Shown here piece after piece: positions 42,145-47,913 of a stretch of DNA of 64,000 bases. Positions within the stretch are counted from its first letter, which is position 1. Every line of letters begins with the position of its first letter. Below the pieces are notes generated by a model. That model was not told where the DNA came from. It saw only the letters and a program-made list of their open reading frames with translations, and searched no databases. The stretch spans positions 186,001-250,000 of the forward strand of contig NZ_JAESVP010000006.1 of assembly GCF_016765795.1 (NCBI RefSeq), given 5' to 3'. The position numbers and the translations under genes are program-made. The DNA is from Fuscibacter oryzae. GTDB lineage: Bacteria; Pseudomonadota; Alphaproteobacteria; Rhodobacterales; Rhodobacteraceae.

Positions 42145-42867
42145 TTAGCCATAGGGCAGGCGCTGCCGCAACAGCCCACCCGCCGAAGCCGCGATACGCA
42201 ACAGGCGGCGGCGGTCGCCCGCCAGCGCGGCATCCAGCAGACCGCCCAGTGCGCCGCGCGCCTTCAGGTGGGGCACCAGATCGGAATGACCCAAATCGGG
42301 GAAAAGGATGTGGTCGGTGCCGGGCTGTTGCGGAAAGGGCAGGGCTTGCGGCAGATCATCCTGTGCGCCGTGGAACAGATAGGCATGGCCTAGCGAGGGC
42401 AGGGGCGCGGTGGGCCAGCGAAGCGGCGAAAGCGCTGCGGTCCAGCGCGACCAGCGTGTTTCGCCCGGCACCATGCCCGATGCAACGGACCATTGCGGGC
42501 CGAATGCCAGCACGACATCAACCGGCAGAACCTGTGCGGCAACCAACGCCGAAAATGCGCCCATCGATAGACCGATGGTGGTAATCCGTGTAATGGGATG
42601 ACGAGCAGAAATCGTCTCTAAACTGCGGATTAGAGCCTTTTCAAAGCCCGGGTCATTGGCCCAGCTTCTGCTATCATCCATCACGAACAACGTCCGTCTT
42701 GTGCCATTGGCTGTGGCCGTGCCGACAAACTCGGGCGAGGGCGTGTGGCAGGGATCGTGGCCGATGGAAGAAAAGGCGATGACCAGATCATCCTTCGGCC
42801 CGTCGAGGAAATCGACGGTCCAGGGCGGGTTGTTCCATAGCCGTTCAAAGGAAAGCTGTTGCGCCAT
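42145..42867 (-). CDS. Alpha/beta hydrolase-like protein
   Basis: A 240-residue protein with an alpha/beta-hydrolase core. The nucleophile elbow is GLSMGAFSAL with Ser near residue 99. The candidate acid is in LFHGAQDDLP, and the candidate His is in FPDLGHSDLVPH. The N-terminus (LSFERLWNNPPWTVDFLDGPKDDLVIAFSS) is beta-rich and fits the strands before the elbow. The substrate is unknown. It lies 63 bp downstream of clpB behind a good terminator. Confidence 0.8.
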   Translation of the reverse strand: MAQQLSFERLWNNPPWTVDFLDGPKDDLVIAFSSIGHDPCHTPSPEFVGTATANGTRRTLFVMDDSRSWANDPGFEKALIRSLETISARHPITRITTIGLSMGAFSALVAAQVLPVDVVLAFGPQWSVASGMVPGETRWSRWTAALSPLRWPTAPLPSLGHAYLFHGAQDDLPQALPFPQQPGTDHILFPDLGHSDLVPHLKARGALGGLLDAALAGDRRRLLRIAASAGGLLRQRLPYG

Positions 42868-42897
42868 GCGGCCATTCTGCCGATGGGCGCGAAAAGG

Positions 42898-42927
42898 AAA
42901 ACCCCCGGAGTTTCCTCCGGGGGTTTT
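42898..42927 (-). terminator. Rho-independent terminator of clpB
   Basis: AAAACCCCCGGAGG and its complement CCTCCGGGGGTTTT form a 10-bp G/C stem flanked by A and T runs, only 3 bp after the clpB stop codon. It looks strong on both strands. Confidence 0.88.
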
Positions 42928-42930
42928 GGC

Positions 42931-45549
42931 TTAGTGGATCACAGCCTTTACCGGCTTGTCGCGGCGGCTGGTGGCCGCCACTCGGTCGTCAATGATCAGG
43001 CCATCGGGACCGGCGGTGACCTTGACCACCGAGCCATCCAGCACCTGCCCACCCAGCAGCATCTCGGCCAGCGGGTCTTGCAGGGCGCGCTGGATCACAC
43101 GCTTCAGGGGCCGGGCGCCGAACACCGGGTCATAGCCTTCGTCGGCCAGCCATTGCCGCGCCGCCTGATCCAGCTCCAGCGAAATCTTGCGCTGGGCCAG
43201 CCGCTTTTCAAGGCGACGAAGCTGGATGGTGACGATGCCGTCCATGTCGCCACGGGTCAGGCGGTCAAAGATGATCTGCTCATCCAGACGGTTCAGGAAT
43301 TCGGGCCGGAAGTGCATCCGAACCGCCTCTTCCACCTCATGCCGGGCCTCGGTCGGGTCGGCCCCTTCGGGCAGTTCCGACAGCGCCCGCGCGCCAAGGT
43401 TCGAGGTCAGCACGATCAGCGTCTGCTTGAAGTCCACCGTCCGGCCTTGGCCATCGGTCAGGATGCCATCATCCAGCACCTGCAACAGCACGTTGAACAC
43501 ATCGGGATGGGCCTTTTCCACCTCGTCGAACAGCACGACCTGATAGGGACGCCGCCGCACGGCTTCGGTCAGAACGCCACCCTCGTCATAGCCGACGTAG
43601 CCGGGGGGCGCGCCGATCAGCCGCGCGACCGAGTGTTTCTCCATAAACTCCGACATGTCGATGCGGACCATCGCGTTTTCATCGTCAAACAGATATTCGG
43701 CGACGGCTTTGGTCAGTTCGGTCTTGCCCACGCCGGTCGGCCCAAGGAACAGAAAGCTGCCCAAAGGCCGACCTTCATCGTTCAGGCCCGCCCGCGCCCG
43801 GCGCACGGCATTGGCCACGGCCACCACCGCGTCATGCTGGCCGATCACCCGCTTGCCCAGTTCCTCTTCCATGCGCAGCAGCTTTTCGCGCTCACCCTCC
43901 AGCATCTTGGTGGTGGGAATGCCGGTCCAACGCTCGACCACTTCGGCGATCTGCTCGGGCCGCACGGCTTCGGATACCAAAGCCTCACCCTCGCGCGCCT
44001 CGGCCTCGGCCAGCGATTTTTCCAGCGCTGGGATGCGACCGTATTGCAGTTCACCCGCCTTGGCAAAGTCACCCTCGCGCTTGGCCTGTTCCAGTTCGGC
44101 GCGGGCCTTGTCGAGTTGCTCTTTCAGGTCGCGGGCCTTTTCCAGGCTGTCGCGTTCGGCCTGCCATTTGGCGGTCATTTCGGCCGAGCGGTCTTTCAGA
44201 TCGGCCAGTTCTTTTTCCAGCTTTTCCAGCCGATCCTTGCTGGCCGCGTCATCCTCTTTCTTCAGCGCCTCGGATTCGATCTGCATTTGCAGGATCTGCC
44301 GGTCCAGCGCGTCCAGCTCTTCGGGCTTGGAATCCACCTCCATCCGCAACCGGCTGGCGGCTTCGTCCATCAGGTCAATCGCCTTGTCGGGCAGGAAACG
44401 GTCGGTGATGTAGCGGTGGGAAAGCGTTGCCGCCGCCACCAGCGCCGAGTCGGCGATGCGCACCCCGTGGTGAAGCTCATACTTTTCCTTGATGCCGCGC
44501 AGGATGCTGATGGTGTCTTCGACCGTCGGTTCATTCACCATCACGGGCTGAAACCGGCGGGCCAAGGCCGCGTCTTTCTCCACATATTTGCGGTATTCAT
44601 CCAACGTGGTGGCGCCAACGCAATGCAGCTCACCCCGCGCCAGCGCGGGTTTGATCAGGTTGGCGGCATCCATCGCGCCATCGGATTTCCCGGCCCCGAC
44701 CAGAGTGTGCATTTCGTCGATGAACAGGATGATCTCGCCATTGGCCGAGGTCACCTCGTTCAATACGGCTTTCAGGCGTTCCTCAAACTCACCACGATAC
44801 TTCGCGCCGGCAATCAGCGCGCCCATGTCCAGCGCCATCAGCTTTTTGTTGCGCAAGGATTCCGGCACATCGCCATCAACGATGCGCAGGGCAAGGCCCT
44901 CGGCAATCGCCGTCTTGCCAACACCCGGTTCACCAATCAGCACCGGGTTGTTCTTGGTGCGACGCGACAGAACCTGCATGGCGCGGCGAATTTCTTCGTC
45001 GCGACCAATGATCGGGTCGATCTTGCCGCTGGCGGCGGCTTCGGTCAGGTCGCGGGCATATTTCTTCAAGGCCTCCATCGTCTCTTCGGACGAGGCAGTG
45101 TCGGCGGTCCGGCCCTTGCGCACCTCATTGATGGCCGCGTTCAGGCCTTGGGCGTTCACCGCCCCGGCAGACAGCGCATCGCGCGCACGGGTGTTTACCA
45201 AGGCCAAAGCGGTCAGCAGGCGTTCCACCGGAACAAAGCTGTCCCCGGCCTTTTTCGCCACGGTTTCCGCTTCGTCCAGCACGCGGACAAGGCTGGGGTC
45301 GATATAGGTGTTGCCCTCTCCGCCCGAAACCTTGGGCAGCTTGGCAAGGGCGGCATCATTCGCCTCGGCTACGCGGTCGGGCGCGCCGCCTGCCTTGCGG
45401 ATCAGGTTCGAGGCAAGGCCCTGATCGTCATCCATCAAGGCTTTCAGCAGATGGTCGGGCAGCACGCGCTGGTGATTTTCGCGCATCGCAATCGTCTGGG
45501 CCGCTTGCAGGAAGCCGCGCGACCGCTCCGTGAATTTCTCCAAATTCAT
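42931..45549 (-). CDS. clpB: ATP-dependent disaggregase ClpB
   Basis: An 872-residue Hsp100 chaperone. In order: an N-terminal Clp-N domain (1-145); AAA+ module 1 with Walker [17 protein letters not shown]; a coiled-coil middle domain (about 410-525); AAA+ module 2 with [13 protein letters not shown]; and a C-terminal D2 small domain. It resolubilises aggregated proteins with DnaK. The ATG at 45549 has AAGGAGAT upstream; the reading frame continues upstream but that part is not conserved-looking. A heat-shock promoter is found about 70 bp upstream and a terminator directly after the gene. Confidence 0.98.
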
Positions 45550-45620
45550 CGGTATCTCCTTTTCTGAAGCACCGTCTTTGGACGCCCTGAAAAGGCACGC
45601 CCGTTCCGGCCTTGCCCGAG

Positions 45621-45649
45621 ACATGGGCACCGGATCGGGGCGTTGCAAG
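45621..45649 (-). promoter_or_regulatory. Sigma-32 (RpoH) heat-shock promoter of clpB
   Basis: On the minus strand CTTGCAA (45643-45649), a 14-bp spacer and GCCCATGT (45621-45628) match the RpoH consensus CTTGAAA-N13-15-CCCCATNT at six of seven and six of seven fixed positions. Transcription would start near 45614, about 65 bp before the clpB ATG. Confidence 0.75.
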
Positions 45650-45824
45650 ACTGTGCAACACCTGCGGCGAAAATATCGCAAAACGCTGAATTGCAGATGA
45701 ATCTTGGCCTGCGGAAACCCGCCGAAACAGGGCGCGAACGTGGGCGCCGCGCCGCGTAGGCGGAAACCCGCGCTTGTGCTGCCGCACTAAAACTCTCCCA
45801 ATGCGGGAAAAGGGCGGGACAGCC

Positions 45825-46187
45825 ATGCATGAGACGTTACGACCGCTGATCCACAAGGCTCAGGTTCTGGGTCTGCAGATTCACGTTGCGCGAGCGGGCC
45901 TATGCCTGGGCGACGCGGCAGAGGCGGTGTCGCTGGATGACGGCACGATTGGCGTGATGGCGCGGATACGCCGGCCATTCCTTGGGGTGATTCCGCGCCA
46001 GAAGAACATGGTTCTGGGGCGGCTCGGGCCGGCGGCCTCTCGCATATTGATGCCAGAGCTGACTCAGGGGCGCCCCCTGCGGCTGCGGATCGTCGGGCTG
46101 ACGCCGGAACATCTGGCGGGGCCGGACGGGGCAGAGGTGCATATCTCGGCCTGGGGTGCGCCGCCGCCTGCGGGCTATATCGCGTAA
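45825..46187 (+). CDS. Conserved hypothetical protein, 120 aa
   Basis: A small mixed protein with no signal or membrane helix. It begins MHETLRPLIHKAQVLGLQIHVARAG and has a basic middle (RIRRPFLGVIPRQKN) and a hydrophilic end. I recognise no motif. The ATG at 45825 has GGGAC upstream; an earlier in-frame ATG at 45801 lacks a binding site. It is divergent from clpB, and its end overlaps the tail of the TolB-like gene by 13 bp, convergent. The coding pattern looks real but the function is unknown. Confidence 0.65.
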   Translation: MHETLRPLIHKAQVLGLQIHVARAGLCLGDAAEAVSLDDGTIGVMARIRRPFLGVIPRQKNMVLGRLGPAASRILMPELTQGRPLRLRIVGLTPEHLAGPDGAEVHISAWGAPPPAGYIA

Positions 46188-47095
46188 CGGATATAGGCAA
46201 AGGCTGATCCGTCGGGCGACCAGTTCGGCACATTCATCGTGCCCTGACCGCCGATGAATGCGCGGATACGGCGACGGTCGGTGCCATCGGGGTTGCACAG
46301 CACCAAGGCCACCGGCAGGTCGGCCGGGTGGCTTTGGGTGCCGGGCGGATAGGCCAGATAGACCAGATGTCGCCCACAAGGCGACGGGTGCGGGAACCAG
46401 TTCACATGGTCATCGCGGAAGAGGGGGCGCTGGTCGCTGCCATCCGCGTTCATCACCCAGATTTGGGCATGGCCCGTGGCATCACAGTTCCAGTAGATGC
46501 GGCGGCCATCGGCGCTGAAATCGGGGCCGTCGGAGTGGCCGATGCCTTGGGTCAGGCGGGTTTCTTGTGGCGCCCCCTCACCCCGGCCCTCTCCCCCGAG
46601 GGGAGAGGGAGGCGCATCGGATTGGGTGGTGCGCCCTCTCCCTTCGGGGGAGAGGGTAGGGTGAGGGGGCGCTAGCATCGTGTAGATATCCAGCGCCTCG
46701 GATGTTTCACGAACGGCCGGATAGAGCAGCATTTTGTCATCAGATGAAACCCCATGCCACCAGCTTGGCGGCTGCGGGCTGATCTTTTCCAAAGGCCCGC
46801 CAGCGGCAGGCATCCGGTAGATTTGCGCGCCCCGGCCTTCGTGATGCGAGGACAAGTAGATCACCTGTCCATCCGGGCTGAACCCATGGTCATTGTTGCA
46901 GCGGGTGGCGGGGCCGGTGTCGATCCGCTCCATCCGGGGGTTATCAAGCGGGATGCGATAAAGCAGCCCGGCAGAGTTGACCATCAGCCAGCCGCCACAG
47001 CGCGACCAGTTCGGCGCTTCGACCCGGCCATCGACCTCCAGCACCAGCCGCACCGTGCCGCTGGCAACATGGTAGGTCTCGATCAGGCTTTTCAA
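46175..47095 (-). CDS. TolB-like beta-propeller protein with in-frame palindromic insertion
   Basis: A 306-residue protein of WD40-like/TolB-type beta-propeller repeats (FSPDGQVIYLSSHHEGRGAQIYRM, FSADGRRIYWNCDATGHAQIW, NWSPDGSAFAYIRY). No signal peptide is visible, so it is probably cytosolic. Residues about 142-176 are out of character (APPHPTLSPEGRGR... and PSPLGGEGRGEGAPQ). They correspond exactly to a palindromic DNA element at 46570-46672 that interrupts a propeller blade without breaking the frame. It overlaps the upstream 257-residue gene by 4 bp. Possible role: sugar-linked hydrolase or lyase partner, by the ROK neighbour; not certain. Confidence 0.8.
   Translation of the reverse strand: MKSLIETYHVASGTVRLVLEVDGRVEAPNWSRCGGWLMVNSAGLLYRIPLDNPRMERIDTGPATRCNNDHGFSPDGQVIYLSSHHEGRGAQIYRMPAAGGPLEKISPQPPSWWHGVSSDDKMLLYPAVRETSEALDIYTMLAPPHPTLSPEGRGRTTQSDAPPSPLGGEGRGEGAPQETRLTQGIGHSDGPDFSADGRRIYWNCDATGHAQIWVMNADGSDQRPLFRDDHVNWFPHPSPCGRHLVYLAYPPGTQSHPADLPVALVLCNPDGTDRRRIRAFIGGQGTMNVPNWSPDGSAFAYIRYAI
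46570..46672. repeat. Palindromic repeat element inserted in frame
   Basis: The outer arms GCGCCCCCTCACCC (46570-46583) and GGGTGAGGGGGCGC (46659-46672) are a perfect 14-bp inverted repeat. Inside are two strong hairpins, CCCTCTCCCCCGAGGGGAGAGGG-type at 46588-46609 and 46634-46656, and a further pair GGCGCA/TGCGCC at 46611-46616 and 46630-46635. This layout belongs to a widely dispersed class of CCCTCTCC/GGAGAGGG palindromes that normally lie between genes. Confidence 0.9.
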
Positions 47096-47865
47096 TCGCG
47101 AACCTTGGGGGTCAGCAAGCGTTTGGGGCGCAGCGATTCGGCAGCCTTGAACAGCCCGAAGGTCTGGTTGACGTAGTTCACCACGCCACCGATCTGCTCC
47201 ATGTATGTCTGCAATTCGAGCGTGCGCTCGGCCTCGACCAATTGCACGGCGCGGTCGGGGCCGTTTGCTTCGAACTGCACATAGAACAGCGGCTCACCCC
47301 GGCGCAGGATCAGGTCTTTCTGCGGTTCGTGCCATTCAAAGGCCCACATCAGCGGACGCGGCCAGATGTTCAGCGGAAAGCGCCCGCCAAAGATGGTGCC
47401 GGGCAGGGTTTCGGAGCGATAATGCAGAAAGGGCGAAAGCTGCGTCACATACACCGGTTCATCGGCGATGAAGCAGTAGGGCAGCGAAAGCTGCACGGTC
47501 GGGCGGTCGGGATAGCGCCACTCAGCCTCGGCCATCAGGGACAGCACCTCGCCCAGCTTGTTGCCACGAATCGTGCTGGCGCCGCCTGCACGGTTGACCA
47601 GATGCGCCTTGCCCTTGTCATCGCGGCCAAAGCCGATGTGCAGGTCGAACGGGCATTTCACCATGAAATACCGGCTTTCCAACTGAATCACGCCGGGGCA
47701 GCGGGCAGCGGATTTGGCATGGGTGCGGTTGGTCTGGCGAAAGCTGACGCGCTCGGGCGGATCATACAGCACCGCGCCCTTGTCACTGGTCAGAAACCAA
47801 CCCACCTGCACCGGGCCAGAGTTCGGCCCCTCCTCGGGGCGGTCGAAGGTCAGGGTAATATCCAT
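47092..47865 (-). CDS. Conserved hypothetical protein, 257 aa
   Basis: A soluble protein with no signal peptide. It starts MDITLTFDRPEEG and includes a beta-rich body and a SLPYCFIADEPVYVTQLSPFLHY segment. It ends with a basic helical tail (AESLRPKRLLTPKVRD). I do not recognise the family. The ATG at 47865 has AAGG upstream, and the start overlaps nothing. It ends 4 bp into the TolB-like gene and lies 48 bp after the ROK gene, so the three form an operon. Function unknown. Confidence 0.72.
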   Translation of the reverse strand: MDITLTFDRPEEGPNSGPVQVGWFLTSDKGAVLYDPPERVSFRQTNRTHAKSAARCPGVIQLESRYFMVKCPFDLHIGFGRDDKGKAHLVNRAGGASTIRGNKLGEVLSLMAEAEWRYPDRPTVQLSLPYCFIADEPVYVTQLSPFLHYRSETLPGTIFGGRFPLNIWPRPLMWAFEWHEPQKDLILRRGEPLFYVQFEANGPDRAVQLVEAERTLELQTYMEQIGGVVNYVNQTFGLFKAAESLRPKRLLTPKVRD

Positions 47866-47913
47866 GCCAGGCCTTTCTGCTTGGGGCGAGGTGACTACCA
47901 AGCGCTGCGGCTG

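Follow-up and report, generated by a model that had tools for sequence, protein, structure and literature searches.

How does a palindromic repeat that normally lies between genes come to stand inside a protein-coding gene, and what becomes of the gene? The question is raised by a 64,000-nucleotide stretch of the genome of Fuscibacter oryzae, which we call the window. A first-pass annotation, made from the letters alone, had described there a 103-bp element with a perfect 14-bp outer inverted repeat and two inner hairpins, placed in frame within a TolB-like gene. Direct reading bore out both the architecture and the position, the element being part of a 306-aa ORF on the minus strand (Table 1).

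Table 1. Coordinates of the palindromic element, its parts and the surrounding genes in the window
Feature	Position	Strand	Basis and remarks
Complete palindromic element (two inverted TM units), encoding residues 142-176 of the propeller protein	46570..46672	-	103 bp; read directly and found by repeat search
Left outer arm of the perfect 14-bp inverted repeat, GCGCCCCCTCACCC	46570..46583		Read directly
Right outer arm of the perfect 14-bp inverted repeat, GGGTGAGGGGGCGC	46659..46672		Read directly
TM unit, second loop CCG (Holder type B), hairpin 46587-46609, tail outward	46575..46609	-	Read directly; types from the available part of PMC4666352
TM unit, second loop TA, hairpin 46634-46656, tail outward	46634..46667	+	Read directly; types from the available part of PMC4666352
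Spacer between the hairpins, 24 nt	46610..46633
Host gene, encodes a TolB-like beta-propeller protein of 306 aa from a TTG start; 2OJH is the closest solved structure	46175..47095	-
Preceding gene, 269 aa, no Pfam or NCBIfam match, overlaps the host gene by 4 nt	47092..47901	-

The element is composed of two inverted copies of a known motif. The G/C-rich intrastrand triplex motif, TM or TM_ECO, was defined as CCCTCTCCC-loop-GGGAGAGGG-loop-GGGTGAGGG by Holder et al. in 2015, in the available part of whose paper the units are typed by the second loop, TTA for type A and CCG for type B (PMC4666352). Direct reading and pattern matching found the hairpin CCCTCTCCC / GGGAGAGGG followed by the G-rich third strand GGGTGAGGG in both window units. 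The second loop of the right unit, TA, differs from type A (TTA) in being one base short. The same core occurs in E. coli in close inverted pairs, always of a type A with a type B unit, and all 23 copies in E. coli MG1655 are reported to be intergenic (PMC4666352). That position is an observation on MG1655 and not part of the definition, whereas the ORF that contains the window pair is under purifying selection.

From CCCTCACCC to GGGTGAGGG the window element measures 93 nt, the shortest among the 14 pairs of this genome, and 99 nt with the GCC...GGC ends included. The RNA fold of the full copy reaches -91.2 kcal/mol, compared with -50.1 (sd 3.9) in 200 shuffles (z -10.6). No Rfam family was found at gathering score within 46000-47200. 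A search with the element gave 52 matches in its own genome (3.81 Mb in 21 contigs, 97.6% complete), and the exact hairpin pattern was found 26 times, compared with 0 hits of a reversed-pattern control. Since the matches, the pattern count and the fold all point the same way, the element is not a product of chance.

Manual grouping of these 52 matches and the hairpin-pattern matches gave 20 places. At 14 of them the units form an inverted pair whose tails point outward (up to three mismatches allowed); the others hold a single unit, in some cases beside the remains of a second. Together with the perfect 14-bp outer arms, the pairs give the element the terminal inverted repeats expected of a MITE. 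All 14 pairs begin with CCCTCACCC; 12 end with GGGTGAGGG, one (L087) with GGGTGAGCG and one (L095) with GGGTAAGGG.

Only the window copy, among the 20 places, is shown to be interior to a protein, and several others overlap the ends of open frames. The search for further intragenic copies that the first-pass annotation suggested found the copies and showed no second interior case, in a Pfam scan of 20 chosen ORFs that span or overlap copies and in which ORFs without a Pfam match stay undecided. Domains scored over the cut-off in L087 (GNAT), L098 (FAD-binding) and L101 (DUF559), with the copy upstream of the domain in each, and these copies probably precede the true gene start. In L102 weak hexapeptide matches below the cut-off lie downstream of the copy. 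The view that such palindromes normally sit between genes agrees with the lack of a shown interior position at the other 19 places, with E. coli, where 30 of 30 rows among the matches listed (4153 records matching) have no feature under the match, and with the available part of PMC4666352. We also considered an element built for translation and found no support for it: the 14 pairs have 39 open frames out of 84 (0.46), compared with 0.54 in random stretches of the same loci and 0.48 in shuffled elements.

Sixteen of 198 family genomes contain the hairpin pattern, some perhaps without being TM units, and the richest are G139 (66 copies), G000 (26), G086 (17) and G023 (8). Spanning frames were checked in 19 regions of G139, which hold some of its 66 pattern copies, in five loci of G023 and in four of G001. 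A Pfam scan of ten chosen ORFs (nine from G139, one from G023) showed no interior case; two had domains, both downstream of the copy. In G139 the hairpins of L210, L215, L217, L220 and L221 form tandem arrays with periods of about 66, 79, 119 or 150 bp, and some of these arrays (L217, L220) lie within long open frames without a Pfam match.

Short palindromes within proteins are also known from the GTAG/CGTC REPs, which encode 20-30 residues and, when intragenic, are dimers or grouped in more than half of the cases (Di Nocera et al. 2013, available part of PMC3733652). The window pair resembles them in being a short palindromic dimer that encodes residues within a protein. The element might accordingly belong to a REP/RAYT system and have been placed by a Y1 transposase, an idea to which the occurrence of REP dimers inside ORFs (PMC3733652) and one family genome with both the hairpin pattern and PF01797 (G057) lend something. 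That genome is the only one in both sets, 16 of the 198 family genomes having the pattern and 18 having PF01797, and the four pattern-richest genomes are not among the 18. PF01797, the RAYT-type Y1 family and the sole transposase family searched, gave 0 matches in the window genome, whereas 5 of 14 control genomes were positive. The TM pairs, of which 14 were read with their flanks, end in CCCTCACCC/GGGTGAGGG and not in GTAG or CGTC. We therefore regard placement by a REP/RAYT system as very improbable, though a transposase that is distant or has since been lost may have had a part.

The host protein contains a PD40 propeller repeat. It was rejected as a Tol-Pal TolB equivalog, scoring 82 bits for NCBIfam TIGR02800 against a cut-off of 343.15. 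A Foldseek comparison with the solved structure 2OJH, a putative TolB of Agrobacterium, gave 40% identity and a template-modelling score of 0.95 over the target. The stretches that match 2OJH cover residues 1-140 and 177-304 of the host protein, and the five 2OJH residues in between correspond to the native turn. An AlphaFold2 model built from a 29-sequence alignment has a mean pLDDT of 90.9, and only residues 152-174 fall below 50. In this model strand 136-141 ends just before the insert, which would be placed at the beta-hairpin turn preceding ETRLT. The turn has GG in many of the relatives listed in the homologue alignment, and it is plausible that it is a permissive place for insertion. 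The product is predicted with confidence to be a propeller, and its disordered loop, rich in Pro and Gly, would be some 30-35 residues long, in agreement with the surface loop proposed by the first-pass annotation. That annotation had called the inserted peptide Pro/Gly/Arg-rich; this is right for Pro (8 of the 35 residues) and Gly (7) and wrong for Arg (3), which is not outstanding.

Comparison with homologues bears on the history of the site. The searches gave 4 of 4 genus genomes and 44 of 198 family genomes at E values up to 1e-30. Eighty loci from named genomes, mostly Rhodobacteraceae, were kept and aligned with the window protein, G002 and G003, which makes 83 proteins, some of which may come from close assemblies. 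The segment is absent in 81 of the 83, so it is not true that every orthologue contains it, the outcome that the first-pass annotation had named as speaking against an insertion. It is present in the window genome and in the closest relative found, the metagenome-assembled genome UBA1943 (L104; L010 of G001). The UBA1943 copy is at the same codon and in the same orientation; it is diverged, 33 nt shorter in frame and without one hairpin, while part of one TM unit is still recognisable. The two copies presumably share a common ancestry. One record, L121 (CP059262.1), is titled Exiguobacterium profundum and has a gene 58% identical to this Rhodobacteraceae-type protein; the record is probably mislabelled.

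Assemblies tend to break at such repeats, and the window genome is in 21 contigs, so we asked how far an assembly artefact could account for the insert. A diverged copy stands at the same codon in another genome, and the alignment of the two loci extends over 3.9 kb, with 85% identity. An artefact is hardly credible against these observations.

Compared with insert-free relatives, the window protein has gained 31 residues net over G003 and 32 over G002, not the roughly 35 of the first-pass annotation; over G003, the nearest insert-free relative found (64% identity over the BLAST alignment, gap included), the net gain is 93 nt. This nearest empty site is diverged and the turn itself varies among relatives, so that neither the exact ends of the insert nor any target duplication can be pinned down. 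Counted with its GCC...GGC ends, the element has 99 nt against a net gain of 93-96 nt, which implies some further change at the site.

The palindrome in the window is probably unstable, the relative's copy being shorter and having one hairpin fewer. The unusual fold is absent from the UBA1943 copy (-36.7 kcal/mol, z -0.7, compared with z -10.6 in the full window copy). Inverted TM pairs of E. coli are also reported to undergo partial deletions (available part of PMC4666352). The 33-nt difference is best taken as a probable loss in the relative. Other orthologous TM places in the window genome and G001 (L085/L073, L088/L072, L089/L067, L090/L063, L091/L074, L092/L070 and L099/L071) have a pair in one genome and a single unit in the other at some of them. 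At L090 and L092 a single unit in G001 corresponds to a pair in the window genome; at L091 the window genome shows a degraded remnant beside one good unit, and G001 a single unit; and at L089 a hairpin is missing in the window genome rather than in the relative. These pair and single-unit changes are unpolarised by an outgroup, so they are read as differences and not as directions.

Purifying selection has acted on the gene to either side of the insert. When the two carriers are compared, the body (269 codons) has dN 0.093 and dS 0.626 by Nei-Gojobori (dN/dS 0.15), and dN 0.086 and dS 1.065 by YN00. The 24 codons of the insert, of which the left part is doubtfully aligned, have dN 0.396 and dS 0.471 (dN/dS 0.84), and its better-aligned 16 codons have dN/dS 0.64. 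The flanking parts of the protein have therefore been maintained, whereas the peptide between them drifts. The claim that the insertion is without stop or frameshift and leaves one protein is supported, as far as sequence comparison can tell, by a frame that is open in both carriers and by this selection on either flank. With the body divided at the insert, dN/dS comes to 0.256 for the upstream and 0.068 for the downstream part, and the ratio is similarly lopsided in insert-free relatives (0.300 and 0.133 between G003 and G193; 0.289 and 0.219 between G003 and G002). Because these ratios integrate over the whole divergence of the two genomes, they would not reveal a function lost very recently.

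A pseudogene, or translation in two pieces, would mean that the element is effectively non-coding. Ribosomes can be impeded by strong hairpins, which suits this alternative, and so does the lack of a shown interior position at the other 19 places in the genome. The dN to outgroup G003 is also slightly higher in the window gene than in that of the relative, with 0.270 upstream and 0.157 downstream as compared with 0.242 and 0.149, and the full-length carrier is slightly above the relative in all four comparisons with the outgroups G003 and G193. Judged from these sequences, the excess is no marked decay, yet it counts against the reading that we prefer and very slightly lowers our confidence in it. 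On the opposite side, the frame has neither stop nor frameshift, purifying selection acts on both sides of the insert and most strongly downstream, and the 33-nt length change in the relative is a multiple of three. A pseudogene or a split translation is thus very improbable.

Selection might instead act on the insert itself, the Pro/Gly-rich peptide or the mRNA hairpin serving as a linker, a binding loop, a translation pause or an mRNA stabiliser. The insert is in frame in two genomes of the genus, the full copy has an extreme fold of -91.2 kcal/mol, and part of one unit is recognisable in the relative. The insert dN/dS of 0.84, or 0.64 in the better-aligned codons, does not suggest strong constraint, and the relative lacks one hairpin as well as the unusual fold. 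The loop is predicted to be disordered, and 81 of the 83 homologues do without it. A serving loop is therefore highly unlikely.

What accounts best for the data, and what we hold very probable, is a tolerated, probably neutral in-frame insertion of a TM pair that is older than the split of the two species. Under this reading a TM pair, which normally lies between genes, would have come into the propeller coding sequence in the common ancestor with UBA1943, presumably by insertion of a mobile copy. It would have been placed at the beta-hairpin turn with the reading frame preserved. The gene would then have gone on as a protein-coding gene, and the insert-bearing protein, which is probably expressed, would carry a disordered Pro/Gly-rich loop. 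The loop peptide would drift close to neutrality and is presumably without function. The unstable palindrome may then have lost 33 nt in frame, including one hairpin, in the relative.

TM pairs also lie in frame in proteins encoded on plasmids. Of the best places listed for 60 of 99 plasmid records, 6 were unannotated, 50 had no feature under the match and 4 had a CDS; the plasmid gene table is incomplete, so some of the 50 feature-free rows may be annotated originally. In H31 and H35, plasmid rows with a CDS, the match touches only the gene end. The TM pair at L187:1791-1935 (NC_013858.1, Azospirillum sp. B510) lies in frame in the C-terminal tail of an HlyD-family protein. This protein has 389 aa compared with 339 aa in A. 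lipoferum 4B (50 more residues), and the overlap with the next gene, rbbA, is kept; we find this case convincing. A second in-frame pair, at L184:1801-1915 (NZ_CP155755.1, Sphingomonas parapaucimobilis), lies in the interdomain linker of a dihydrolipoamide acyltransferase (E2), between the lipoyl domain (5-77) and the E3-binding domain (149-182). The carrier E2 has 436 aa compared with 421, 426 and 432 in three relatives (4 to 15 longer). Since this gain is less than the coding length of the TM pair, part of the linker must have been replaced or lost, and it is not a clean addition. The tails of both plasmid pairs point inward, unlike those of the pairs in the window genome. One unit is read in the same frame in the propeller, HlyD and E2 proteins and encodes PSPLxGEGRGEG or a close peptide.

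It is possible, though on balance rather doubtful, that TM elements form a further family of protein-invading palindromes that is independent of RAYTs. In several alphaproteobacterial lineages such a family would repeatedly have come into proteins in frame at permissive places, namely a propeller turn, an HlyD tail and an E2 linker, with the same disordered Pro/Gly peptide, and would be a free-living parallel to the Rickettsia palindromic elements (RPEs). The E2 case, which is not a clean addition, lowers the odds of this reading. In phages the repeat occurs in only two records, both of Campylobacter phages (MG065686.1:13631-13763 and MG065691.1:160360-160492), which match it over the same span, and at the same identity, as E. 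coli K-12 does, and these copies are possibly contaminating bacterial DNA.

RPEs were the parallel drawn by the first-pass annotation, and it is apt as a mode of action. These palindromic repeats, about 150 bp long, have entered the genes of unrelated and apparently functional proteins without breaking the frame (Ogata et al. 2000, 2002; available parts of PMC10969869 and PMC3733652), and the window element is likewise in frame in a protein and absent from orthologues. RPEs differ in that dozens are described from one genome, nearly half of them in ORFs, against one interior case shown in 20 places here, a comparison made by description and not by sequence. The CCCTCTCCCXX(X)GGGAGAGGG repeats of Enterobacter sp. 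638 have the same hairpin as the window element, number one hundred copies and are often duplicate or triplicate; they differ in lying often at gene 3' ends, with a presumed role in termination (available part of PMC2869309). Small mobile repeats in intergenic and intragenic regions are mentioned in the available part of PMC2229807, and the available main text of PMC12306157 lacks the TM hairpin sequence.

In-frame palindromes are thus a known kind of event, as RPEs and GTAG/CGTC REPs show, and we found no report of an in-frame TM insertion among open-licence PMC papers, which is no proof of absence. The locus is a clean example of a normally non-coding repeat that is now part of a kept protein, and a repeat family called always intergenic in E. 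coli MG1655 can be in coding sequence elsewhere. Because insert-free orthologues, a full copy, the relative's shorter copy and a solved insert-free structure are at hand, the tolerance of the loop is directly measurable. Peptides such as PSPLxGEGRGEG or LSPEGRG may help annotation by flagging TM insertions, and the case bears on the question of how TM repeats spread.

Elsewhere in the window, a 902-aa open frame on the plus strand (42859-45567) runs antisense to the long ORF at 42931-45681, which is putatively ClpB-like. This antisense frame is probably a shadow frame of GC-rich DNA.
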